DNA of 64,000 nucleotides from Phaeobacter sp. G2 (lineage in GTDB: Bacteria > Pseudomonadota > Alphaproteobacteria > Rhodobacterales > Rhodobacteraceae): contig CP104100.1 of NCBI GenBank assembly GCA_025163595.1, positions 2,542,001 to 2,606,000 of the forward strand, read 5' to 3'. The notes under the pieces were generated by a model, which did no database searches, was not told the origin of the DNA, and was given only the letters and a program-made list of their open reading frames with translations. Position numbers and translations under genes: made by a program. Below, one piece after another: positions 11,019-23,092 of the stretch. Every line of letters starts with the position of its first letter. Position 1 is the stretch's first letter.

Positions 11019-12014
11019 CTAGCTGTTGGTCAAAACCACCTTGCCCATAACACGCCTGTCCTGCATCATCTCCAACGCATCTGCGGCCTTTGTCATAGGC
11101 AAGACATCGCAAATCTGTGGCTTAATCTTGCCTGCGCCATAGAGCTCCTGCAGCTCGGTCATGTTTTCTTCATGGCCCTTGGGATCACGAAAGACCGATG
11201 CGCCCCAGAATACGCCACGAATATCGCAGCCTTTCAGCAGCGGCAGGTTCAGCGGAAGTTCCGGGATGCCGGCAGGAAAACCAACAACCAGGTAGCGCCC
11301 CAGCCATGCCATCGTCCGAAGCGCTGGTTCTGCATAGTTACCGCCCACCGCATCATAAACAACATCAACGCCAGCTTTGCCGGACAGCTCTTTGATATTA
11401 TTCGAAAACTCTTTCTGCTCATCGCGACTCATCTCGCGACTGTAGACCAGGGTTTCATCGGCGCCGATCTTCTTGCAAAAGGCTGCTTTTTCGTCGGATG
11501 ACACCGCCGCAATCACCTTTGCGCCCATGGATTTCCCCAGCTCAATTGCCGCAGCACCAACGCCGCCGGCGGCACCCAAAATCAGCAGGGTTTCCCCGGC
11601 TTTAAGCTGCGCCCGGTCCTTAAGTGCGTGATAGGAGGTGCCATAGGTAAAGACAAAACCCGCAGCATCCTGAAAAGGCATCGCGTCCGGGAACTTCACG
11701 GCCTGCTTTGCCGCCACACAGATCTGCGTGGCAAAACCTCCATGGCCGGTCAAGGCCAGCACACGGTCGCCGATTTCGTATCCGCTGACCCCCTCACCAA
11801 GGGTAGCCACCACCCCGGCAATCTCGCCACCCGGGGCAAAGGGGCGCGGCGGCTTCATCTGATAGAGATCACGAATGATCAGCGTGTCAGGGAAGTTGAC
11901 GCCAGCAGCGCGAATATCAACCAGCAGTTCACCCTTGCCAGGGCTCAAATCCGGCTGTTCGGTCCAGACAAGTGTTTGAGGTCCACCCGGGGTGGTGCTG
12001 AGCATAGATTTCAT
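11019..12014 (-). CDS. NADPH:quinone oxidoreductase-like MDR enzyme
   Basis: This 331-residue member of the medium-chain dehydrogenase/reductase superfamily is of the zinc-free quinone-oxidoreductase type. Motifs are GVNFPDTLIIRDLYQ, PFAPGGEIAGVV, GDRVLAL, GHGGFA, and the NADPH-binding LILGAAGGVGAAAIELGK (about 145). No structural or catalytic zinc cysteines are visible. It diverges from the acyl-CoA dehydrogenase operon at 12183, a common pairing in fatty-acid or acyl-CoA gene blocks, so an enoyl-CoA or enone substrate is plausible. The substrate cannot be read from the sequence. Confidence 0.85.
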   Translation of the reverse strand: MKSMLSTTPGGPQTLVWTEQPDLSPGKGELLVDIRAAGVNFPDTLIIRDLYQMKPPRPFAPGGEIAGVVATLGEGVSGYEIGDRVLALTGHGGFATQICVAAKQAVKFPDAMPFQDAAGFVFTYGTSYHALKDRAQLKAGETLLILGAAGGVGAAAIELGKSMGAKVIAAVSSDEKAAFCKKIGADETLVYSREMSRDEQKEFSNNIKELSGKAGVDVVYDAVGGNYAEPALRTMAWLGRYLVVGFPAGIPELPLNLPLLKGCDIRGVFWGASVFRDPKGHEENMTELQELYGAGKIKPQICDVLPMTKAADALEMMQDRRVMGKVVLTNS

Positions 12015-12182: not shown

Positions 12183-13352
12183 ATGGGTGAAGTTAACGCG
12201 GGACGCGATCACGCCGAGTTTCGGCGCGAGGTCCGGGAATGGTTGGAGACAAATTGCCCGCCAGAAATGCGCGATGGTGCGGCTGGCGAGAGTTCGATCT
12301 GTTGGGGGGGGACCACTTGGGTCTTTACCTGCGATGAACAAAAGATCTGGCTGGATCGCTGCGCTGCACGTGGTTTTACCGTGCCCACATGGCCCAAAGC
12401 CTACGGCGGTGCAGGGCTTAGCCGGGATGAAGACAAAATCCTGAAGCAGGAGATGCAGGCCATCGGCGCGCGTTCGCCGCTGGATAGCTTTGGCATTTGG
12501 ATGCTTGGGCCGGCGCTTTTGAAGTTCGGTACAGAAGAGCAGAAACTGCATTACCTGCCGCCCATTGCCCGCGGCGAAATTCGCTGGTGTCAGGGCTATT
12601 CCGAGCCCGGCGCCGGCTCTGATCTGGCCGGGGTACAGACCCATGCCGCGGATCAGGGCGAGACCTGGCTGGTCAATGGGCAAAAGATCTGGACCTCTTA
12701 TGCGGATCGCGCCGATTGGATCTTTGCTCTGCTCAGAACAAACCGTGACGCCAAGAAACATCTCGGCATTTCCTTTGTCCTTATGGATATGCGCAGCCCT
12801 GGAATTACCACGCGTCCGATCCAGCTGATTTCCGGCGCGTCGCCGTTTTGTGAGACCTTTTTTGAAAATGTCGAGGTGCCAAAGACCCAAGTTGTTGGCA
12901 CCATTGATCGGGGCTGGGATGTGGCGAAATACCTGCTGACCCATGAACGCGAGATGATCAGCAATGGCGGCAATGCCATGGGATCTGGCCGTGCCCTGGG
13001 GGCGGTTTTAACCGAGAGCGAAACCGGCCAGAGCGATCCTGTGCTGCGTGGCGATGCGATGCGGGCCGAGGTGGATAGCCTGGCGATGGCGATGACCCTG
13101 GAGCGGTACAAGGATCAGGCCGAAGGCGGCCAGGGCGTTGGCGATGCCTCTGCCATGCTGAAATACATGGGAACCGAACTGAACAAGACCCGGCTTGAAC
13201 TGATCATGGCTACCGATGGGGCTGATGCATTGACCTGGGGAGACACGCCAGCATCGTCTTGGCTGCGGACCAAGGCCAACTCGATCGAGGGGGGCACCTC
13301 TGAAGTGATGCTCTCGATTATCAGCCGTCGCATTTTGAACCTTCCAGGATAA
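12183..13352 (+). CDS. Acyl-CoA dehydrogenase family protein (catalytic subunit candidate)
   Basis: This 389-residue flavoenzyme has the FAD-contact motif CQGYSEPGAGSDLAG (about 137), WTSYADRADWIF, and a C-terminal SIEGGTSEVMLSI motif (about 370). That motif carries the Glu at the place of the catalytic base of medium-chain acyl-CoA dehydrogenase. The C-terminus matches ACAD10/ACAD11- and FadE-like enzymes. It is the first gene of a six-gene unit and lies five bases before a second dehydrogenase that lacks this Glu. It may act on a substituted or branched acyl-CoA. Confidence 0.9.
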   Translation: MGEVNAGRDHAEFRREVREWLETNCPPEMRDGAAGESSICWGGTTWVFTCDEQKIWLDRCAARGFTVPTWPKAYGGAGLSRDEDKILKQEMQAIGARSPLDSFGIWMLGPALLKFGTEEQKLHYLPPIARGEIRWCQGYSEPGAGSDLAGVQTHAADQGETWLVNGQKIWTSYADRADWIFALLRTNRDAKKHLGISFVLMDMRSPGITTRPIQLISGASPFCETFFENVEVPKTQVVGTIDRGWDVAKYLLTHEREMISNGGNAMGSGRALGAVLTESETGQSDPVLRGDAMRAEVDSLAMAMTLERYKDQAEGGQGVGDASAMLKYMGTELNKTRLELIMATDGADALTWGDTPASSWLRTKANSIEGGTSEVMLSIISRRILNLPG

Positions 13353-13357
13353 GAAAC

Positions 13358-14473
13358 ATGGCAAAACTCATTCAAACAGAGGAAGAAACCCTCTTGTCAG
13401 AGGCGGCCCATGGGTTCCTCTCCAAATCCGCCCCAGTGTCGCGTCTGCGGGAAATGCGCGACAGTGGCGAGCATTCTGATCCGGCGCTTTGGCAGGAAAT
13501 GGCTGCAGCCGGCTGGGCCGGTGTATTGGTGCCCGAGGCCGCTGAAGGCTCCGATATGGGCCACGCAGCAGCCCATGTGCTGGCCCGCGAAATGGGCCGC
13601 AACCTGACTGTCAGCCCCTTTCTCAGCACCGCCGTCATGGCTGCAACCTTGCTGCGCCAATTCAGCGATGACAGCGCCACCAGCAAACTGAAACAGATCG
13701 CCGTCGGCGGACTGACCTATGCGCTGGCGTTGGATGAGACGGCAAAATTTTCGCCAGACCAGGTTGAGCTAACTGCGCAAAGCCGTGGCAACGGCTATGT
13801 GTTAAACGGTAAAAAGCGATTTGTCGTAGATGGTTGTGACGCGGACCGCATTCTGGTTTTGGCCAAAAGCGACGCGGGCCTGTGCCTGTTTGATCTGGCC
13901 AACAAGGCCCAGGGTCTGACCCAAAATGCGCTGAAAATGATCGACAGTCGTGATGCTGCGGACTTGATATTTGACGATGTCGAAGTCTCAGGCGAGGCCC
14001 TGTTGGGCGACCCCGGTGCAGGGTTTGATGTGTTGAAACCCGCGCTTGAGGCCGGACAGGCCGCATTGGCGGCTGAAACCACCGGACTGGCAGAGGCGGC
14101 ATTTTCCCTGACCACCGATTACCTGAAAGAGCGCAAACAATTTGGCATTACCATCGGCAGTTTCCAGGCGTTGCAACATCGGGCGGCGCATCTGTGGTGC
14201 GAAATCGAGCTCACACATTCTGCGGTGTTGAATGCCGGCCGTATTCTGGACGAAACTCCAGATCAGGCGACACTTGCGGTCTCGGTCGCCAAGGCGCGGG
14301 CAACGGATACGGCCCAGAAATCGGTTCAAGAAGGGGTGCAGATGCATGGTGGCATTGGCATGACCGATGAATTCGACATGGGTTTTTATATGAAACGCGC
14401 CCGGGTCGCAGCCGAATGGCTGGGGGACTATGGCTATCACGCCGGGCTGGTTGCCCAATTGCGTGGCTTCTAA
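13358..14473 (+). CDS. Acyl-CoA dehydrogenase family protein (probable partner subunit without the usual base)
   Basis: This 371-residue acyl-CoA dehydrogenase-fold protein shows the middle-domain pattern YVLNGKKRFVVDGCDADRILV and the C-terminal VQEGVQMHGGIGMTDE and YMKRARVAAEWLGDY. The C-terminus ends shortly after this and contains no YEGTSE-type motif, so the canonical catalytic Glu is missing. Pairs of adjacent acyl-CoA dehydrogenase genes where only one subunit has the base form alpha2-beta2 enzymes in steroid side-chain and related catabolism, and that arrangement is inferred here. It is followed by the SDR gene after 12 bases. Confidence 0.88.
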   Translation: MAKLIQTEEETLLSEAAHGFLSKSAPVSRLREMRDSGEHSDPALWQEMAAAGWAGVLVPEAAEGSDMGHAAAHVLAREMGRNLTVSPFLSTAVMAATLLRQFSDDSATSKLKQIAVGGLTYALALDETAKFSPDQVELTAQSRGNGYVLNGKKRFVVDGCDADRILVLAKSDAGLCLFDLANKAQGLTQNALKMIDSRDAADLIFDDVEVSGEALLGDPGAGFDVLKPALEAGQAALAAETTGLAEAAFSLTTDYLKERKQFGITIGSFQALQHRAAHLWCEIELTHSAVLNAGRILDETPDQATLAVSVAKARATDTAQKSVQEGVQMHGGIGMTDEFDMGFYMKRARVAAEWLGDYGYHAGLVAQLRGF

Positions 14474-14485
14474 GGAGAGATTGAG

Positions 14486-15301
14486 ATGCAGGATCTGTTT
14501 ACACTCAACGGCAAAACCGCACTGATCACCGGCGGCGCAACCGGCATTGGCCGGATGGCGGCTGAAGCCATGGTCCGGGCTGGCGCCCGGGTCTTGATCG
14601 CCTCGCGTAAAGGCCATGCCTGCGAAGCCGTGGCGCAAGAACTGAACGCATTGGATGCACCGGGCTCGGCCGAAGGTTTTGCCGGCGATGTCGGCACCGA
14701 AGAGGGCATCATCGCCCTGGTGGATGAGGTTAAATCCCGCACCGAACAGCTTGATATTTTGATGAATAACTCTGGTATCACCTGGGGGGCAGAGCTCAAG
14801 GACTTCCCCCATCAGGCTTGGGAAAAGGTTATGAATGTCAATGTGACTGGCGTTTTTGATCTGACCCGTCGCTTGCTGCCAATGTTGATCAAAAGCGGTG
14901 AGCTGGGAGATCCGGCGCGGGTGATCAATGTAGGCTCGGTCATGGGGGAAATCCCTATGGGGGATGGCGCCTATAGCTATTCCGCCTCCAAGGCGGCGGT
15001 CATTCATATGTCCAAAATTCTTGCCAAGGAACTGGCCCATAAGCATGTCACGGTAAATGCGCTGGCCCCTGGGCCCTTTGTTTCCAGAATGACGGCCTTT
15101 GCCACCGGCGACGAGGAAAAGCGGGAAAAAGTCGGCAACGATGTCCCCCTTGGCCGGGTTGGCTGCTACGAGGATATCGCGGGCTCTGTGTTGTTTCTCA
15201 GCGGCAAGGGCGGCGCCTATGTCACAGGGGCGGTGGTGCCGATTTCAGGTGGTATCAATGTCATGTCCGGTCAGAATATTTTTGGCAGCGTAATGGAATA
15301 G
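14486..15301 (+). CDS. SDR-family dehydrogenase
   Basis: This 271-residue classical short-chain dehydrogenase has the nucleotide motif TGGATGIGRMAAEAM (about 14), the NNSG motif, the active-site Ser in NVGSVMGEIP, and the YSASK box (Tyr about 168, Lys about 172). GGAGAG precedes the ATG. In the family this chemistry oxidises or reduces a secondary alcohol or ketone; in the operon it is a candidate for a keto/hydroxyacyl-CoA step. The exact substrate is unknown. Confidence 0.88.
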   Translation: MQDLFTLNGKTALITGGATGIGRMAAEAMVRAGARVLIASRKGHACEAVAQELNALDAPGSAEGFAGDVGTEEGIIALVDEVKSRTEQLDILMNNSGITWGAELKDFPHQAWEKVMNVNVTGVFDLTRRLLPMLIKSGELGDPARVINVGSVMGEIPMGDGAYSYSASKAAVIHMSKILAKELAHKHVTVNALAPGPFVSRMTAFATGDEEKREKVGNDVPLGRVGCYEDIAGSVLFLSGKGGAYVTGAVVPISGGINVMSGQNIFGSVME

Positions 15302-15346
15302 AAAGGTCAAAGTTGACCCGTAATATTCTGAAATAAGGAAGAAAAG

Positions 15347-16342
15347 ATGTCTTCACCCAATCAACGCCTCCCCAAGGCGCTGCAAAACCTGCGCCTGCCG
15401 CTGATCGGCTCGCCTTTGTTTATCATTTCGGTGCCTGAACTGGTGATTGCCCAGTGTAAGGCGGGCATCGTCGGCGCCTTTCCAGCGCTAAATGCCCGCG
15501 AAGGCGAGGGGGATCCGATCCTGCTGGAGGCTTGGCTCAAGCAGATCACCGAAGAGCTGGATCGCCACAATCAGGAAAACCCTGATCAGCCCGCCGCGCC
15601 CTTTGCGGTCAATCAGATCGTTCACCGCTCGAACGCGCGACTGGAACGCGACCTGGAAATCTGCAACCGCTGGAAGGTGCCGATCTGGATCACCTCGCTG
15701 GGCGCGCGTCCTGAAGTGAATGATGCGGCACATTCCTGTGGTGGCGTGGTGTTGCATGATGTGATCAACAATACCTTTGCCAAAAAGGCCATCGACAAGG
15801 GCGCTGACGGGCTGATTGCCGTGGCTGCCGGCGCTGGCGGCCATGCAGGCGAACAGTCGCCTTTTGCCTTGATCCGTGAAATCCGCAGCTGGTTTGATGG
15901 CCCGCTGGCGCTGTCCGGCGCAATCGCCAGCGGCGAAGCCCTGTTGGCGGCGCGCGCTTTGGGCGCCGATTTTGGCTATGCCGGCTCGCCCTTCATCGCC
16001 ACCCATGAGGCAAACGCCCAACAGGATTACAAACAAATGATCGTCGAAAGCGGCGCAGAGGACATTGTATATTCCTCACTCTTTACAGGTGTTTGGGGGA
16101 ACTATCTGAAGAAGTCTGTTTCTCAGGCCGGTCTGGACCCCGAAAACCTGCCCCAGGCAGATTCCTCTTCCATGAACTTTGGCAGCGGCTCTTCCAAACC
16201 AAAGGCTTGGAAAGAGATCTGGGGTTCTGGCCAAGGCATTGGCGATGTAAAATCGATCTGCTCTGCGGGGGAATTGGTAGATCGCATTGCCAGCGAATAC
16301 CACGCCGCTGGTAAAAAACTGGCTAGCGAGTTCAAGAGCTGA
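15347..16342 (+). CDS. Nitronate monooxygenase-family flavoprotein
   Basis: This 331-residue TIM-barrel FMN protein is of the nitronate monooxygenase/2-nitropropane dioxygenase family. Motifs are LRLPLIGSPLFIISVPELVIAQ, the flavin and catalytic-His region AVAAGAGGHAGEQSPFALI (about 161) and SGAIASGEAL. Family members oxidise nitronates, but many homologues in acyl-CoA clusters have no assigned reaction, and enoyl-reductase-like roles occur in related barrels. It lies in the six-gene unit, 45 bases after the SDR and two bases before the phosphatase gene. Confidence 0.88.
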   Translation: MSSPNQRLPKALQNLRLPLIGSPLFIISVPELVIAQCKAGIVGAFPALNAREGEGDPILLEAWLKQITEELDRHNQENPDQPAAPFAVNQIVHRSNARLERDLEICNRWKVPIWITSLGARPEVNDAAHSCGGVVLHDVINNTFAKKAIDKGADGLIAVAAGAGGHAGEQSPFALIREIRSWFDGPLALSGAIASGEALLAARALGADFGYAGSPFIATHEANAQQDYKQMIVESGAEDIVYSSLFTGVWGNYLKKSVSQAGLDPENLPQADSSSMNFGSGSSKPKAWKEIWGSGQGIGDVKSICSAGELVDRIASEYHAAGKKLASEFKS

Positions 16343-16344
16343 CC

Positions 16345-16995
16345 ATGGCCGAACTTCTGATTGTTCGCCATGGACAGGCCTCGTTTGGGGCCGAGAACTA
16401 TGATGATCTAAGCGACCTGGGGCGGCAACAGTCGCGCGCCCTGGGGGATACCTTACGTGCCCTTGACTGGGTCCCGGATCGGATGATCACCGGAAGCTTG
16501 ATGCGTCAAAAGCAAACCCTGGAGGAAATGGGGTTTGACGGAGCTGCAGAAGAGCATGCGGGCTGGAATGAATATGATTTTCACGACCTGCTCAACAGCC
16601 GCTATGGCGGTGTGGCCCCGGATGATGTCATCACAGATCGCAAGACGCATTTTCGTGCCCTCAGGGAAACGCTGACAGAGTGGCAGCAGGGCGGCATTGC
16701 CTCGGCGGGTGAAAGCTGGCTCAGCTTTTGCGACCGGGTTGAACGGGCCCGCCAGGCGGCGGTTTCTGATAGGGTGGAACGGGTATTGGTGGTAAGTTCG
16801 GGCGGAGCCATCGCCCGGCTGGTTGCGGACAGCCTTTCCCTGCCCAACGATCAGATGATCGCGCTGAACCTTCAGATCAAGAACACATCCACCAGCCGGT
16901 TCGTGTTCTCAAAGGAGAAGTTTTTTCTCCACGAATTCAATTCTGTGCCGCATTTTCATAACGTGGAGCGTGCGGCTCTTATGACCTATAGTTGA
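16345..16995 (+). CDS. Histidine phosphatase family protein
   Basis: This 216-residue protein begins MAELLIVRHGQASFG, the RHG phospho-histidine motif of the phosphoglycerate-mutase-like branch. It has LSDLGRQQSRALG, a conserved Glu-containing HAGWNEYDFHD segment, and a second catalytic His/Ser region VVSSGGAIARLV (the family often has SHGG; here SSGG). The exchange of that His for Ser could lower activity or point to a different role. It overlaps the operon tightly, with starts and stops two to 12 bases apart. The substrate is unknown; a phosphorylated acyl intermediate is an inference from context. Confidence 0.85.
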   Translation: MAELLIVRHGQASFGAENYDDLSDLGRQQSRALGDTLRALDWVPDRMITGSLMRQKQTLEEMGFDGAAEEHAGWNEYDFHDLLNSRYGGVAPDDVITDRKTHFRALRETLTEWQQGGIASAGESWLSFCDRVERARQAAVSDRVERVLVVSSGGAIARLVADSLSLPNDQMIALNLQIKNTSTSRFVFSKEKFFLHEFNSVPHFHNVERAALMTYS

Positions 16996-17007
16996 CAGGA
17001 ACAGAAG

Positions 17008-18036
17008 ATGAGCACAAAGACCCAGACCCTGGATCACGAGGCCGTTGGCGCCTATCTTCGCGGCCGCCTGCCGGGATTTGACAGCGATTTTGAGGTAGTG
17101 AAGTTTCAAACCGGGCAATCGAACCCCACCTTCATGTTGAAAACCACCGAAGGAAACTATGTGCTGCGGCGCAAACCTCCGGGTGTTTTGCTGAAATCGG
17201 CCCATGCGGTTGATCGTGAATTCCGGGTTCAAAAAGCTCTGGCGGACACCGACGTGCCGGTGGCCAAGATGCATCTGCTGTGCGAAGACGACGATGTCAT
17301 TGGCTCAGCCTTTTATGTGATGGATCACGTGGCCGGGCGCAACCTCACCGATCCGCGTATGCCGGACTCGGACCCGCAATCCCGCGCTGCGGTGGTAGAT
17401 GAGATGAGCCGGGTTCTGGCCTCGCTGCATCAGGTGGATATTGATGCGGTCGGCTTGGCGGACTATGGCCCTCCCGGCAACTATTTTGAGCGCCAGCTGG
17501 CGCGCTGGACCAAACAGTATCGCGCCTCGGAAACCGAGGTCATCCCAGAGATGAACGAGCTGATACAAGCCCTTGAAAAAGCGATGCCAAAAGAGGACGG
17601 ACAACGGGGTCTTGTGCACGGAGACTACCGGATCGACAATATGATCTTTGCCAGCGACGGACCAACCTGTCAGGCCGTGTTGGACTGGGAGCTGTCAACC
17701 ATTGGCCACCCCTATGCGGATCTTGCCGGGGTTATCATGCAGTGGCAAATGCCGCCGGGAAGCGAAGGCCGTGGCCTGGCGGGTATTGATCGCGCCGCGC
17801 TTGGTCTGCCTTCGGATCAGGCCTTTATCGAAAGCTATTGCAAGCGGCGGGGATTAGCCGGAATTGACAACTTTGGCTTCTATCTGTCTTTCAGCTTTTT
17901 CCGCATGGGCGGGATTTTGCAGGGCGTTCTGAAACGCGCGCTTGATGGCAATGCCTCAAACCCCGAACGCGCCGTCAAGCTGGGTGGGTTTGTGTCACTG
18001 TTTGCCCGTAGCGGTTTGGAAGCGCTGAATAAATAA
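17008..18036 (+). CDS. APH-type phosphotransferase (LvaA / ACAD10–ACAD11 kinase-domain-like)
   Basis: This 342-residue protein of the aminoglycoside-phosphotransferase superfamily carries the acyl-CoA-dehydrogenase-associated variant. It has QTGQSNPTFML (nucleotide loop), YVLRRKPPG (Lys), the Brenner box HGDYRIDNMIF (Asp about 204) and VLDWELSTIGHPYADLA (metal-binding Asp). In ACAD11 and ACAD10 this domain is fused to an acyl-CoA dehydrogenase, and in Pseudomonas putida the stand-alone LvaA phosphorylates 4-hydroxyvaleryl-CoA. Two dehydrogenases and an SDR are encoded in the same operon. It is the last gene before a terminator. Confidence 0.88.
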   Translation: MSTKTQTLDHEAVGAYLRGRLPGFDSDFEVVKFQTGQSNPTFMLKTTEGNYVLRRKPPGVLLKSAHAVDREFRVQKALADTDVPVAKMHLLCEDDDVIGSAFYVMDHVAGRNLTDPRMPDSDPQSRAAVVDEMSRVLASLHQVDIDAVGLADYGPPGNYFERQLARWTKQYRASETEVIPEMNELIQALEKAMPKEDGQRGLVHGDYRIDNMIFASDGPTCQAVLDWELSTIGHPYADLAGVIMQWQMPPGSEGRGLAGIDRAALGLPSDQAFIESYCKRRGLAGIDNFGFYLSFSFFRMGGILQGVLKRALDGNASNPERAVKLGGFVSLFARSGLEALNK

Positions 18037-18064
18037 CCTTTTGATCTATCGCATGTATCATTTG

Positions 18065-18099
18065 AAAAAATGCGGGCAACATCTGCCCGCATTTGTTTA
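18065..18099 (+). terminator. Terminator between the two acyl-CoA units
   Basis: AAATGCGGGCA (18068–18078) pairs with TGCCCGCATTT (18084–18094) around a five-base loop, followed by GTTTAC. It separates the dehydrogenase–kinase unit from the crotonase–thioesterase unit. Confidence 0.8.
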
Positions 18100-18245
18100 C
18101 CTCTCTTGGCTAGACAGGCCTGACCATGCGGTACTGCGTGGTTATACGTAGCTCTTTACCCTCGACCGGGGGCATCAGGACTGCGCAATATGTCAATCAA
18201 AGCCTTCGGCAACAGAAGGCGAACTCTGAGCAAAGGAGAGCCCGG

Positions 18246-19010
18246 ATGACAGGAAGTGATACCCTCACCACACGTGATCTTGGAGATGGGATAGTTGAGC
18301 TGCAGTTGGGCCGTGGCCCGGTCAATGCGCTGAGTGCTGCGTTCCTGATGGAATTTGCTGAACTGATCACCCGACTGGGCACGGATGACGCCGTGCGGTG
18401 CATCATTTTAAGCAGTCCTTTCAAGGTGTTTTCTGCCGGGCTTGACCTGAAGGAAGCGCAGCATTTTGATCTAGAGCAGCAACAGGCAATTGTGCGTGGC
18501 CTCAACGAAGGCTTTCTGGCGCTCTATGCCTGCCCCAAACCGGTCGTGGCCTCTGTCGGTGGGGCGGCTATTGCGGGTGGGTTGTTCTTTGTGCTTGCTA
18601 GTGATCGTCGGGTTGCCCTGAACAAATCGTCCTTTGGCCTCGCCGAGGTTCGCGTTGGGGCGGATTTCCCGGTTGGCCCATTGGAGATCGCCAAAGCAAC
18701 CCTGGACGCCGATACCCAGCGGCGCATGATGCTGACCGGCCAACCCATTGGCCCCATCGCAGCGCGTAACTTTGGCTTTATCGACATTATCGCAGACGAC
18801 CTTGAAGATCTGGCAGGCTACTCCCTGTCAGAGGCGCGCAAGCTGGCTGAGCTTCCTTCGATGGCCTATGCCTCGATCAAGCAGCAGCTCAGAGGCGAGA
18901 CAATCAAAAAGATCAAGACAGCATTGGCGGCAGGCGGCAACGCCCCTGACGGCGGCTGGTTCAACAACCAGACCGTCGCGGCCATGCAACGCATGATAGA
19001 TCAGAGATAG
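18246..19010 (+). CDS. Enoyl-CoA hydratase/isomerase family protein
   Basis: This 254-residue crotonase-fold protein shows the two oxyanion-hole segments FSAGLDLKEAQ (about 62) and VGGAAIAGGLFFVLASDRRV (about 103). The region that holds the second catalytic Glu in hydratases (usually PEIxLG) reads LAEVRVGADFPVG, so one acid is kept but the surroundings differ; isomerase or other crotonase chemistry is possible. The frame is open from 18126, but ATG 18246 has AAAGGAG upstream and starts the conserved domain. It opens the second unit of the block. Confidence 0.88.
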   Translation: MTGSDTLTTRDLGDGIVELQLGRGPVNALSAAFLMEFAELITRLGTDDAVRCIILSSPFKVFSAGLDLKEAQHFDLEQQQAIVRGLNEGFLALYACPKPVVASVGGAAIAGGLFFVLASDRRVALNKSSFGLAEVRVGADFPVGPLEIAKATLDADTQRRMMLTGQPIGPIAARNFGFIDIIADDLEDLAGYSLSEARKLAELPSMAYASIKQQLRGETIKKIKTALAAGGNAPDGGWFNNQTVAAMQRMIDQR

Positions 19011-19042
19011 CGACATAGAGGCGAATATGGGGGGTGCAGGGA

Positions 19043-20254
19043 ATGGATAAAACCCGGCTAGAGAACTTAAAGCAATGGCAGCAACGCTATGTGGATGAAC
19101 GAAAATATGCGGGCAGCTCCCTTCTGATCAATCGGGGTGGTGTTGAGCAGTATTTTCATGCGGCAGGCCGCCGGAACCTGGAAGAGAACCTGGACTTCAC
19201 CCGCGATACGCTGGTGCGGATCTATTCCATGACCAAACCTGTGACCTCTGTGGCGCTGATGATGCTGGCCGAAAAGGGGTTGTTTCACCTTGATGCGCCG
19301 GTGTCCGATTTCATTCCAGAATTCTCTCAGATGCAGGCGCTGGTACCCGGTGCCAGTTCGATCGAGCAAACCGAGCCCTCTCGGTCGCCAACCCTGCACG
19401 AACTGCTGACCCATACCGGCGGGTTAAGCTACCCGTTCAACCCCGGCATCCTGTCCCAGGCCATGGACCGTGAACAGCTGATGTTCAAACCCAACCAGGG
19501 CGATTTGGGCAAGATGGTTTCCCACCTGGCCAGCTATCCACTGGCGTTCCAGCCGGGCAGCCGCTGGGAGTATTCCGTCGGTATTGATGTCCTGGGACGA
19601 GTGGTCGAAATTGTTTCTGGTCAGACACTTGCAGAGTTCTTTGAAACAGAGATCTTCCAACCTCTGGGGATGACAGAAACTGGGTTTCGGGTTCCACGGC
19701 AGGCGGGCAACCGCTTTGCATCGCTCTATACTCCGCTGTCCGGGGACGCCATGGCGCTCAATTCCGCACAAACTGGCGGCGAGTCCCTACGCCTGACCGA
19801 TCTTTACGGCGGCTCCCCCTTTGAGACCGCCGATATGATGTCAGGTGGCGGTGGTCTGGTGGGAACCCTTGACGACTATATGCTGTTTGCCGAGATGATG
19901 CGCCAGCGTGGGCGCGGCAAGGATGGCTTTATCCTCTCGCCAAAAACCGTTGATTTTATGATGCAAAACCACCTTCCAGGTGACATTGCCTCTATGGGAC
20001 CACAAAGCTTTGCCGAACAGCCAATGGAGGGCATGGGCTTTGGCCTGGGGGGGGCTGTGGTACTGGATCCAGCCCGGGCGCGCTGCCCCGGATCTGTTGG
20101 CGATTTCAGCTGGGGCGGTATGGCCTCGACCTTTTTTTGGGTGGATCCAAAACTGGACCTATCGGTGGTCTTTTTCACCCAGCTCTCTCCTTCCAGCTCG
20201 TACCCAGCACGGGCTGAACTCAAAGCCCTGGTGCACGGAGCCATTTTGTCATGA
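19043..20254 (+). CDS. Serine hydrolase of the beta-lactamase/esterase class C fold
   Basis: This 403-residue protein has the SxxK motif SMTK (Ser62–Lys65), the second-motif Tyr in WEYSVGID (about 178), and GGAVVLDP near the C-terminus. No signal peptide is visible, so it is probably a cytoplasmic esterase or lactonase and not a penicillin-binding protein. GTG 19034 is an alternative start three codons earlier. The last four bases overlap the CoA-ligase start (ATGA), suggesting that the hydrolase supplies the acid that the ligase activates; this is inference. Confidence 0.85.
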   Translation: MDKTRLENLKQWQQRYVDERKYAGSSLLINRGGVEQYFHAAGRRNLEENLDFTRDTLVRIYSMTKPVTSVALMMLAEKGLFHLDAPVSDFIPEFSQMQALVPGASSIEQTEPSRSPTLHELLTHTGGLSYPFNPGILSQAMDREQLMFKPNQGDLGKMVSHLASYPLAFQPGSRWEYSVGIDVLGRVVEIVSGQTLAEFFETEIFQPLGMTETGFRVPRQAGNRFASLYTPLSGDAMALNSAQTGGESLRLTDLYGGSPFETADMMSGGGGLVGTLDDYMLFAEMMRQRGRGKDGFILSPKTVDFMMQNHLPGDIASMGPQSFAEQPMEGMGFGLGGAVVLDPARARCPGSVGDFSWGGMASTFFWVDPKLDLSVVFFTQLSPSSSYPARAELKALVHGAILS

Positions 20255-22212
20255 ACGAAAACCCAATCCTGTGGACCCCCACATCCGAACGCGCAGAGGC
20301 CAGCCAGCTGGCGGCCTACCAAAACTGGCTAAAGCAGACCAAAGGCCTGGATTTTGACAGCTACAACGCGCTGTGGACCTGGAGCACCACCGACTTGGAG
20401 GCGTTCTGGCAAAGCATTTGTGACTATTTTGAGCTCAAGTTCTCTGAACCGGCCAGCACTGTGCTGGAAGAGCGCAAAATGCCGGGTGCCAAGTGGTTCC
20501 CGGGAGCAAAGCTAAACTGGGCCGAAAATATCCTTGCTGCCAGAGGTGTTGCGGAGAACCATCAGGCTCTTATCATCCACTCTGAAACCTTTGGCCGCAC
20601 AGAACTTAGCCAGGGGGAGCTGCGCGCGCAGGTCGCAAGCCTGGCTGCACATCTGCGTGACATGGGGGTCGGGCAGGGGGACCGGGTCGCCGCCATCCTT
20701 CCCAACACCGAAAGCGCCATTATTGCCTGCCTTGCAGCAACCAGCCTGGGTGCCATCTGGTCTCTCTGTGCGCCAGATATGGGCCATGTTGCCATCCTCG
20801 ACAGGTTCCGACAGATCAAACCCAAGGTATTGATTTATCAGGACAGCTATATGCATGGCGGCAAAGAGATCAGCCGCAAGGACGAGATGGCAAAGGTTGT
20901 CGCGGACTTGCCGGACCTGCAGAGCCATATCTATGTCGCCGCAAATGACCAACCTCTCCCCACAGGCTCTGTCGCCTGGGAAGGCCTGTTGCATCGCCCG
21001 GCAGAGCTGACGTTTGCGCAGGTCGATTTTGACCACCCCCTGTGGATCGTCTATTCCTCTGGCACTACCGGCAACCCCAAGCCGATTGTGCACGGCCACG
21101 GCGGCATTCTGCTGGAAGGCACCAAACAATCGCTTCACCTTGATCTGAGCCCCAGCAGCCGCTTTTGCTGGCTGACCTCATCTGGTTGGATCATGTGGAA
21201 TTCGCAATTTGGGGCTATGGGGCAGGGTGCCACTGTGATGCTTTATGATCGCGCCCCTAACTATCCGGATATGTTGGATATCTGGCGGCGGGTGGCAGAT
21301 GAGAAGATGACGTATTTTGGTGCTGGCGCCGCCTTTTTCACTGCCTGCGCCAAGTCCGGGATCACCCCCGACGCCACGTTGGATCTTTCCGCTCTGGTTT
21401 CACTTGGGGCAACCGGGTCGCCGATGACCTCGGATGGGTATGACTGGGTCTATCGCGCGGTGAGCCCAGATATCTGGCTGGCGCCCATTTCTGGCGGCAC
21501 TGACTTTGGCGGCGCATTCGTCGCCGGCAACGTGATGCTGCCCGTTCGGGCCGGTGAAATGCAGGCCCGTGTGCTTGGCAATGCGGTGCGTGCCTTTGAT
21601 CCTTTTGGCGCCGAGCTGACCGGAGAGGTCGGAGAATTGGTCTGCACCGAACCTTTGCCCTCTATGCCTTTGTTTTTCTGGGGAGATGAGGACGGATCAC
21701 GCCTGTTTGAAAGCTATTTTGACACCTATCCAGGCATCTGGCGGCATGGGGACTGGATATCCTTCACCCCCGATGGTGGCTCGGTCATCTACGGACGTTC
21801 CGATGCCACGATCAACCGTCGCGGACTGCGGTTGGGGTCATCCGAAATCTATCAGGCGGTGGAGGTGCTGGCGGAGATACAGGACAGTTTGGTTGTTGAT
21901 CTGGAATTCCTTGGCAAAGAAAGCTTTATGCCGCTCTTTGTGGTGCTGACACAGCCCGGAAGCCTGGATAATACACTGAAGGATAAGATTAAATCTTCCA
22001 TCCGTCAGTTTGTATCCGCTCGCTTTGTGCCTGACGAAATTATTGAAGTGCCGGAGATTCCCCGCACGCTATCAGGCAAAAAGCTGGAAGTTCCGGTGAA
22101 AAAGCTGCTACTGGGGGGCAACCCTGCAAAGGTTGTGAACCGGGACTCGATGGTGAACCCTGACAGTTTTGATGTATTCATTGCCTATGCGAACGACCGA
22201 AATACATCTTAG
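20251..22212 (+). CDS. Acetoacetate–CoA ligase-like acyl-CoA synthetase
   Basis: This 653-residue ANL-superfamily enzyme resembles acetoacetyl-CoA synthetase. It has an N-terminal ACAS-type domain with WFPGAKLNWAENIL, the AMP-binding box IVYSSGTTGNPKPIVHGHGG (about 266), APISGGTDFGGAF, and YGRSDATINRRGLRLGSSEIY. The C-terminal catalytic Lys is in RTLSGKKLEVPVKKLLLG. It activates a short-chain keto or hydroxy acid with ATP and CoA. The start overlaps the preceding hydrolase gene by four bases. Whether acetoacetate is the true substrate here is open; another 3- or 4-oxo acid would fit the context. Confidence 0.9.
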   Translation: MNENPILWTPTSERAEASQLAAYQNWLKQTKGLDFDSYNALWTWSTTDLEAFWQSICDYFELKFSEPASTVLEERKMPGAKWFPGAKLNWAENILAARGVAENHQALIIHSETFGRTELSQGELRAQVASLAAHLRDMGVGQGDRVAAILPNTESAIIACLAATSLGAIWSLCAPDMGHVAILDRFRQIKPKVLIYQDSYMHGGKEISRKDEMAKVVADLPDLQSHIYVAANDQPLPTGSVAWEGLLHRPAELTFAQVDFDHPLWIVYSSGTTGNPKPIVHGHGGILLEGTKQSLHLDLSPSSRFCWLTSSGWIMWNSQFGAMGQGATVMLYDRAPNYPDMLDIWRRVADEKMTYFGAGAAFFTACAKSGITPDATLDLSALVSLGATGSPMTSDGYDWVYRAVSPDIWLAPISGGTDFGGAFVAGNVMLPVRAGEMQARVLGNAVRAFDPFGAELTGEVGELVCTEPLPSMPLFFWGDEDGSRLFESYFDTYPGIWRHGDWISFTPDGGSVIYGRSDATINRRGLRLGSSEIYQAVEVLAEIQDSLVVDLEFLGKESFMPLFVVLTQPGSLDNTLKDKIKSSIRQFVSARFVPDEIIEVPEIPRTLSGKKLEVPVKKLLLGGNPAKVVNRDSMVNPDSFDVFIAYANDRNTS

Positions 22213-22225
22213 AAAGATCTGCTAA

Positions 22226-23092
22226 ATGACTGACGCTGGGAGTGTTCTTCTCAATCTTCTTGATCTGGAAGAGCTCGATACCAATCTTTATCGCGGGGTT
22301 GGCTCGGGTGGAGAGACGCCCATGCGGATCTACGGTGGCCAGGTCATTGCCCAGGCCTTGGCTGCCGCCTATGCCAGTGTTCCCGAACGGTTGTGCCATT
22401 CGCTGCATGCCTATTTCATCCGGCCCGGCGACCCTAGCAAACCGGTGATCTACGAGGTAGATCCAGCCCGTGATGGCGGCAGTTTTACCACCCGTCGGGT
22501 CACCGCGATCCAGAATGGTCGCCAGATCCTGAACCTGGCAGCCTCGTTCCATTTGGTGGAGTCAGGCTGGGAACATCAGCATGAAATGCCCGATGTGCCA
22601 GCGCCAGACGGGCTGTTGTCCCGCGATGAATTGCATCGCCAGCATGCCCATCGCATCGCAGAGGATCAATATGAGGAATTCATCAAAGAGCGTCCCTTTG
22701 AAATCCGCGATATTGAGCCGCGTGATCCGCTAAATCCAGAAATCACCAGTGATATCAATCATATGTGGATAAGAATGGAGGCGGCCAAAGGGGCAGGGCC
22801 GCAGTTGCAACATGTTCTGATGGCCTATGCCTCCGACTTTGGGTTGCTTGGTTCCGCGCTGCGGCCCCATGGGCTCACCTGGCACAAGCCAGAAGCGATG
22901 ACAGCCAGTCTGGACCATGCCATGTGGTTCCATGCTCCGGTGCAGTTTGAAAACTGGCACCTCTATACAATGGATTCGCCTTTTGGCGGCGGCGGCCGCG
23001 GCTTCAATCGCGGCTCGATCTATACTCAGGACGGCCAATTGGTCGCCAGTGTCGCGCAGGAAGGACTAATGCGGCCAATCAAAGAACGATAA
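22226..23092 (+). CDS. tesB: Acyl-CoA thioesterase II
   Basis: This 288-residue double-hotdog thioesterase has YGGQVIAQALAAAYASVP, HSLHAYFIRPGDPSKPV and, near the C-terminus, LDHAMWFHAPVQFENWHLY followed by GRGFNRGSIYTQDGQLVASVAQEGLMR. That is the full set of TesB markers including the catalytic Asp/Gln/Thr regions. It hydrolyses acyl-CoA and may relieve CoA trapping when the pathway stalls. It is the last gene of the second unit and is convergent with the SDR gene at 23115. Confidence 0.93.
   Translation: MTDAGSVLLNLLDLEELDTNLYRGVGSGGETPMRIYGGQVIAQALAAAYASVPERLCHSLHAYFIRPGDPSKPVIYEVDPARDGGSFTTRRVTAIQNGRQILNLAASFHLVESGWEHQHEMPDVPAPDGLLSRDELHRQHAHRIAEDQYEEFIKERPFEIRDIEPRDPLNPEITSDINHMWIRMEAAKGAGPQLQHVLMAYASDFGLLGSALRPHGLTWHKPEAMTASLDHAMWFHAPVQFENWHLYTMDSPFGGGGRGFNRGSIYTQDGQLVASVAQEGLMRPIKER

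Follow-up and report, generated by a model that had tools for sequence, protein, structure and literature searches.

A gene run in Phaeobacter sp. G2 places a kinase resembling that of ACAD11 beside two acyl-CoA dehydrogenase (ACAD) genes, and it raises the question of whether these genes form a complete pathway or whether the kinase serves enzymes encoded elsewhere. The run lies in a stretch of 64,000 nucleotides (positions 2,542,001 to 2,606,000 of contig CP104100.1), here called the window and numbered from its first letter. The original prediction, made from the sequence of the window, had read positions 12183 to 22212 as Roseobacter genes for catabolism of 4-hydroxy or 4-oxo acids. Ten contiguous + strand open reading frames (ORFs) are present from 12183 onward, just where that prediction had placed them, and the gene content it described is upheld, given that the ORF families agree with its names by NCBIfam and Pfam. 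The host is indeed a Roseobacter, since the nearest named relative is a Pseudophaeobacter metagenome-assembled genome (the two kinases are 99% identical), and 4-hydroxy/4-oxo acyl-CoA catabolism still appears to be the best reading of the pathway class. We consider it likely that the window carries one half of a split island for 4-hydroxyacyl-CoA (gamma-lactone/4-oxo acid) catabolism, with its kinase acting in trans.

The kinase and the ACAD11-type dehydrogenases

The lva operon (lvaABCDEFG) of Pseudomonas putida KT2440 was described by Rand et al. (2017; via PMC6692424, PMC11342911, and PMC12440821), and the chemistry of ACAD10/11 was assigned in mammals only recently, in papers of 2024–2025. 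The kinase of the window, KIN (17008..18036, + strand), matched the kinase domain of mouse ACAD11 over residues 9–338 (phmmer E = 6.5e-76, 42% identity) as well as 3dxp, a structure deposited as "putative acyl-CoA dehydrogenase" (E = 1.3e-104, 52% identity). In the ACAD11 kinase, D220 and N225 are catalytic and R176 and R86 contact CoA (PMC12440821). Residues D220, N225, and R176 correspond to D206, N211, and R162 of KIN, and all three are conserved without exception in the 122 aligned rows, references included. KIN was the sole match in the genome at E ≤ 1e-40, and the broad APH family has six gene matches there, KIN among them. By homology and active-site residues, KIN is assigned as an ACAD11/LvaA-type 4-hydroxyacyl-CoA kinase, which bears out the predicted ACAD10–11/LvaA kind; in the comparison made, with ACAD11 only, it did not group away.

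Elimination of phosphate has been tied to R626, H634-C-M-R637, and D753 of ACAD11 (PMC12440821). The HCMR motif was not found in the sequences of the window dehydrogenases, ACAD1 and ACAD2. A motif scan of 30 of the 34 ACAD matches of the genome (the ACAD1 locus, L023, included) returned two genes with the exact R-LGPGRIH-HCMR pattern, HCMRa (C1:1355779-1357011) and HCMRb (C1:1679023-1680375), which matched the dehydrogenase domain of ACAD11 with E values of 6.9e-124 and 8.3e-119, respectively. Both carry equivalents of R626, H634-C-M-R637, and the Asp base D753. A tree of 32 rows was built from 29 ACADs (from 30 of the 34 Pfam matches of the genome), ACAD1, ACAD2, and ACAD11; ACAD11, HCMRa, and HCMRb formed one clade (100/100), with the window pair elsewhere. 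Motif and tree place HCMRa and HCMRb as ACAD11/LvaC-type dehydrogenases. The kinase is at C1:2559008 and the HCMR genes are about 0.9 and 1.2 Mb away, so they do not form one operon. HCMRb is accompanied by two SDR genes, a crotonase, a 3-hydroxyacyl-CoA dehydrogenase, and a CoA ligase, with an ABC transporter on the opposite strand. Kinase neighbors in Novosphingobium (L277 6731-7924; L279 6483-7667) have the variant motif RLSPARLSHCMR, without ADGPD, and are perhaps a sister subgroup of HCMR dehydrogenases.

The window pair belongs to another kind of ACAD. The best NCBIfam model for ACAD1 (12183..13352, +) was the PimC large subunit (265.7 bits, cut-off 623.9) and that for ACAD2 (13358..14473, +) was the PimD small subunit (187.7 bits, cut-off 652.7), with IpdE2 also matched (124.6 bits, cut-off 450). 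The best solved relatives of ACAD1 are alpha chains of heteromeric ACADs, Tcur3483 and 4x28_A (ChsE4), and E255 of ACAD1 aligns with position 247 of 4x28_A, a Glu that we take to be catalytic. The two genes thus share with PimCD, ChsE4-ChsE5, and IpdE1-IpdE2 the adjacent alpha and beta genes and, by alignment, the Glu base in the alpha chain; they differ from these in their distance (265.7 of 623.9 bits) and in their linkage to a 4-hydroxyacyl-CoA kinase. In heteromeric ACADs the architecture is alpha2beta2 (PMC11153573, PMC8399759) and the alpha subunit holds the Glu (PMC11153573). From model matches, alignment, and tree, ACAD1 and ACAD2 are classed as a two-gene pair of the PimCD/ChsE/IpdE kind, with ACAD1 as the alpha (catalytic) subunit and ACAD2 as the probable beta subunit, PimD/IpdE2-like. 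ACAD1 grouped with L016 and L019 and ACAD2 with L027 (each 100/100), both apart from ACAD11. The assignment of the 12183–13352 dehydrogenase as LvaC/ACAD11-like was therefore rejected on the grounds of the missing motif, the grouping with heteromeric alpha subunits, and the separate clade.

Two more pairs of neighboring ACAD genes occur in the same genome: L019/L027 (G000:C1:950650 and 951843), both of which group with the window pair, and L016 (G000:C2:143975), which groups with the window ACADs and neighbors C2:145129, known by position. PimCD-like pairs matter for C8–C12 dicarboxylates in beta-proteobacteria (PMC12543098). The presence of ACAD1 and ACAD2 hints that the acyl chain is, at one of the steps, branched, cyclic, or dicarboxylic.

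Distribution of the genes and undivided islands

To relate the kinase to its unlinked dehydrogenases, we compared 61 genomes of the family and 249 of the phylum, with set overlaps partly compared by eye. In the family, the kinase (E ≤ 1e-40) was found in 33 genomes and HCMRa (E ≤ 1e-70) in 28, all 28 lying inside the 33; in four of the remaining five kinase genomes, the neighborhood of the kinase includes a weaker HCMR gene (L089, L092, L095, and L097). In the phylum, 87 genomes have the kinase and 92 HCMR (E ≤ 1e-60), with 87 of 87 kinase genomes inside the 92; the Fisher test on the 249 genomes uses all 92, and the distance count covers 91 of them. Among the HCMR matches listed, at least 55 of 85 kinases (≥40% identity) lie within 6 kb of an HCMR gene and at most 30 do not. 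An HCMR gene was present in 24 of 36 family stretches read around kinases. In eight of the 61 genomes the kinase has a single match and the surrounding stretch that was read shows no HCMR gene; such absences are soft, since the overlap rules behind the gene maps leave out part of the genes. Seven of the eight (G000, G031, G038, G041, G043, G044, and G052) have HCMR elsewhere, G038 in five copies. Orthologues of ACAD1 occur in nine of the 61 genomes, all nine with an HCMR enzyme, and (at E ≤ 1e-100) in 30 of the 249, all kinase genomes when the overlap was judged by eye; in 12 of these 30, about 20 kb or less separates ACAD1 from the kinase (coordinates compared by eye). HCMRb at ≥77% was found in five of the nine ACAD1-bearing family genomes and was absent from the other 52.

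The genes around the kinase were counted in 80 named kinase loci, reaching at most 10 kb per side, many shortened by contig ends, and scored with identity thresholds. ACAD1 was present in 34, ACAD2 in 34, SDR in 47, the NMO-like gene in 38, and the histidine-phosphatase homologue HisP in 46; this arrangement is kept in relatives, and the grouping is therefore not due to chance. QOR, a gene of the NADPH:quinone-oxidoreductase family (MDR; 11019..12014, − strand; TIGR02824 238 bits, under the cut-off of 296.8) that diverges from the operon, was present in 57 of the 80 loci and is part of the same conserved neighborhood.

Undivided islands were found in Sulfitobacter. There are 19 plasmid records with any kinase match, 13 of them at ≥70% identity, and the same 13 carry ACAD1 (≥68%) and HCMRb (≥83%), as judged by comparing the sets by eye. 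In the three that were read (M368, S. pontiacus S1704, and S190), the kinase, the alpha/beta pair, and an HCMR gene, its motif checked in each, lie in one island of 16–29 kb. In M368 and S. pontiacus S1704, MaoC, NADP-oxidoreductase, and QOR genes diverge from a run led by ACAD1, which in M368 reads ACAD1, ACAD2, SDR, SDR, NMO, HisP, kinase, and IclR; both islands continue with five ABC genes, serine hydrolase, acetoacetate-CoA ligase, and TesB, and on the opposite strand with VOC, two SDRs, the HCMR dehydrogenase, crotonase, 3-hydroxyacyl-CoA dehydrogenase, and ligase. The set in S190 is shorter (about 16 kb), without HisP beside the kinase, serine hydrolase, crotonase, or ligase. The transporter binding protein of M368 has one match in the Phaeobacter sp. 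G2 genome, which is 86% identical and lies beside HCMRb. Kinase, ACAD1/2, and HCMR also form a single cluster in Croceicoccus marinus (L182), and kinase, HCMR, HisP, ACAD1, ACAD2, and SDR2 are grouped in G227 (L233). In L177, QOR diverges from SDR, MaoC, NMO, HCMRa, and kinase, in that order, with NMO, HCMR, and kinase on one strand; relatives of the window SDR (68%) share a stretch with the kinase and an HCMR gene in L071 and L177. Co-occurrence, side-by-side genes in relatives, and the Sulfitobacter plasmid islands together point to a tie between the kinase and the unlinked HCMR enzymes. The kinase and HCMR assignments, the linkage in relatives, and the split itself are read directly from sequence.

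The position between SDR2 and HisP is occupied by a thiolase gene in S. pontiacus (L217 18138-19334) and by the NMO-like gene in M368 (L184 14129-15121). Novosphingobium humi and Sphingobium sp. TomTYG64 have a cytochrome P450 gene beside the kinase gene or close to it (L279 8724-9953; L185 11214-12431), whose product might be what supplies the hydroxyl.

Proposed pathway and its alternatives

From these data we infer the following reactions, substrates, and roles of ACAD1/2, NMO, QOR, and HisP. Acids would be imported by a branched-chain-amino-acid-type ABC transporter and made into CoA esters (genes at C1:1672-1684 kb). The window kinase would then phosphorylate the 4-hydroxyl of the acyl-CoA, and HCMRa and/or HCMRb would eliminate the phosphate by way of a redox-active FAD to yield 2-enoyl-CoA, a single kinase thus serving both HCMR enzymes in trans. 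By analogy with ACAD10/11, conversion of 4-hydroxyacyl-CoA to 2-enoyl-CoA is the most likely function of the kinase-HCMR couple. Beta-oxidation would proceed with a hydratase, an SDR or 3-hydroxyacyl-CoA dehydrogenase, and a thiolase, the last of which is present in the S. pontiacus island and was not located in Phaeobacter sp. G2. ACAD1/ACAD2 would introduce a double bond into an acyl-CoA of this pathway whose chain is bulky, branched, or dicarboxylic. For the NMO-like protein and QOR a role as enone/enoyl reductases is probable, and HisP may be accessory to the kinase. Given the transporter, the CoA ligase, and the esterase-like hydrolase, the substrates may be acids, esters, or lactones of external origin.

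Like the P. putida lva system, the genome holds a kinase of the same kind, an SDR, and an HCMR dehydrogenase; it differs in that the dehydrogenase is unlinked and the transporter is elsewhere, and it adds a heteromeric ACAD, NMO, QOR, and a serine hydrolase. Mammalian ACAD10/ACAD11 share the kinase similarity and the HCMR clade but are one fused chain (PMC12440821, PMC11342911), whereas the genes are separate here, about 0.9–1.2 Mb apart. The bacterial form of ACAD10/11 would be a gene island bigger than the lva operon and recurrent in marine Roseobacters. Kinase and dehydrogenase genes need not be neighbors, and a search confined to the surroundings of the kinase overlooks its partner. The heteromeric ACAD pair, the NMO-like flavoprotein, and a phosphatase homologue in which one His of the active site is replaced are candidate new parts. 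No literature on this gene set or its substrate in Roseobacters was found among titles and abstract starts in an open-access library. A wider proposal, which we regard as tentative and rather doubtful as a whole, is that such a pathway is widespread in proteobacteria and carried in part on plasmids. In it, a single ACAD11-type kinase would supply several ACAD11-type dehydrogenases in trans, a heteromeric ACAD would handle branched or ring-bearing 4-hydroxy acids, and HisP, though no phosphatase, would replace LvaB as partner of the kinase.

Several observations weigh against the split-island reading. ACAD1/2 pairs occur in Microvirga and Variovorax in clusters where the annotation shows no kinase over a range of 9 kb, so that the role of the pair need not be tied to the kinase. 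Both the kinase and the dehydrogenases were classed against ACAD11 rather than by direct comparison with LvaA and LvaC, and with the offset of D220 the R86 of PMC12440821 maps to no Arg in ACAD11 itself. Co-occurrence derives partly from shared descent and gene adjacency, and the counts and p values ignore phylogeny. HCMRa is flanked by unrelated genes. G004 has the kinase, with no HCMR at E ≤ 1e-70 and none in the 19 kb read around the kinase.

The alternative that survives best, though unlikely, is breakdown of a fragment, cyclic or derived from a steroid or terpenoid, by a route resembling the HIP (C/D ring) pathway, with the kinase acting on a late 4-hydroxy intermediate; IpdC of that pathway is NMO-like. 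The HIP genes include a heteromeric ACAD (IpdE1/E2, ScdC1/C2), an SDR (IpdF/ScdG), IpdC/ScdK, and a crotonase (PMC8399759). The match of ACAD2 to the IpdE2 model and the heteromeric chains closest to ACAD1 fit such a scheme, but the NCBIfam scores of both proteins are far under the cut-offs, and the Sulfitobacter stretches that were read carry no gene annotated as an IpdA/B-like CoA-transferase, the genome not having been surveyed for steroid genes. The only VOC proteins in those stretches are short (123 amino acids).

Operon-type kinases might instead have taken on a new substrate, with another hydroxy-acyl-CoA being phosphorylated and HisP or ACAD1/2 handling the phosphate product independently of HCMR. 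An HCMR gene lies within 10 kb of the kinase in only 6 of the 80 named loci, as this would predict, but the three tested active-site residues are unchanged and the ACAD1-bearing family genomes all retain an HCMR enzyme. In the kinase tree, a quick build with open forks and long rows, the HCMR-adjacent kinases L133 and L177 are intermixed with window-type kinases, and 79 operon-type and 31 HCMR-adjacent rows (labels set by identity thresholds within 6 kb) need six changes compared with 27 in shuffles; the labels are therefore clustered yet do not form two separate clades. We judge this explanation quite improbable. Least credible of all is a self-contained lva-like operon with ACAD1 as the LvaC partner of the kinase: the two genes are near each other on the same strand, but ACAD1 has a ChsE4-type Glu, lacks HCMR, and stands apart from ACAD11, and true HCMR enzymes are encoded elsewhere in the genome.

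Accompanying genes of the window

HisP (16345..16995, +; Pfam, alignment) belongs to the histidine-phosphatase superfamily and has an RHGQ motif. Its R8-H9 is present in 55 of 55 rows, followed by G in 37 and A in 18, in keeping with an RHG motif. Ser152 occupies the column that, from alignment and family knowledge, we take to be the second active-site His position; it is found there in all 55 operon HisPs, and [ST]SGG is present in 18 of 18 members of a wider set, six of which are shared with the 55. Two island histidine-phosphatase paralogues have HGG at this column and adjoin QOR in two Sulfitobacter islands (L184 8139-8792, from M368; L280 8123-8779). L272, another family member in the Phaeobacter genome, also has SGG, and the His replacement may therefore be a subgroup trait. 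No solved structure matched HisP at E ≤ 0.001. HisP may be inactive or unusual as a phosphatase, as judged from these residues, and a role as stand-in for LvaB is a guess. In P. citronellolis LA18T, a histidine phosphatase is clustered with an LvaA homologue, LvaB was not found, LvaC and LvaD homologues follow directly, and the 11.1-kb table of the cluster contains neither a heteromeric ACAD nor NMO (PMC6692424). The original prediction of a gene set outside the described lva operon thus holds in part: a phosphatase beside such a kinase had already been published, and what is new for HisP is the apparent replacement of the second active-site His by Ser.

The NMO/FabK-type FMN protein (15347..16342, +; NCBIfam, Pfam) has a GGHxG motif. 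Among solved structures, its two highest-scoring matches are enoyl-ACP reductases with FMN, and nitronate monooxygenases rank with far lower scores; the protein was therefore rejected as a true nitronate monooxygenase and is likely, from these matches, an enoyl or enone reductase. The SDR oxidoreductase (14486..15301, +; NCBIfam, Pfam) may perform an LvaD-like or a 3-hydroxyacyl step.

The first six genes, ACAD1 to KIN, are spaced by 2–45 nucleotides, and 89 nucleotides separate KIN from the called start of the crotonase/enoyl-CoA hydratase family gene (18126..19010, +; NCBIfam, Pfam). The family match begins at residue 49 and the called start (18126–18245) adds about 40 residues outside it; the true start, as judged by eye, is probably near 18246, which would give a gap of about 209 nucleotides. 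A promoter scan found 2 candidates compared with 4.7 in shuffles, and a terminator scan found 15 compared with 12.1. The remaining + strand genes encode a serine hydrolase/esterase with a class-C beta-lactamase fold (19034..20254; NCBIfam, Pfam), in which SMTK was recognized by eye as SxxK; an acetoacetate-CoA ligase family protein (20251..22212; TIGR01217 725 bits, above the cut-off of 520.9); and a TesB-type acyl-CoA thioesterase II (22226..23092; NCBIfam, Pfam), which begins just past the predicted block. At the Pseudophaeobacter leonis locus L105, the serine hydrolase and ligase genes are each split into two matches, suggesting frameshifts or assembly errors.

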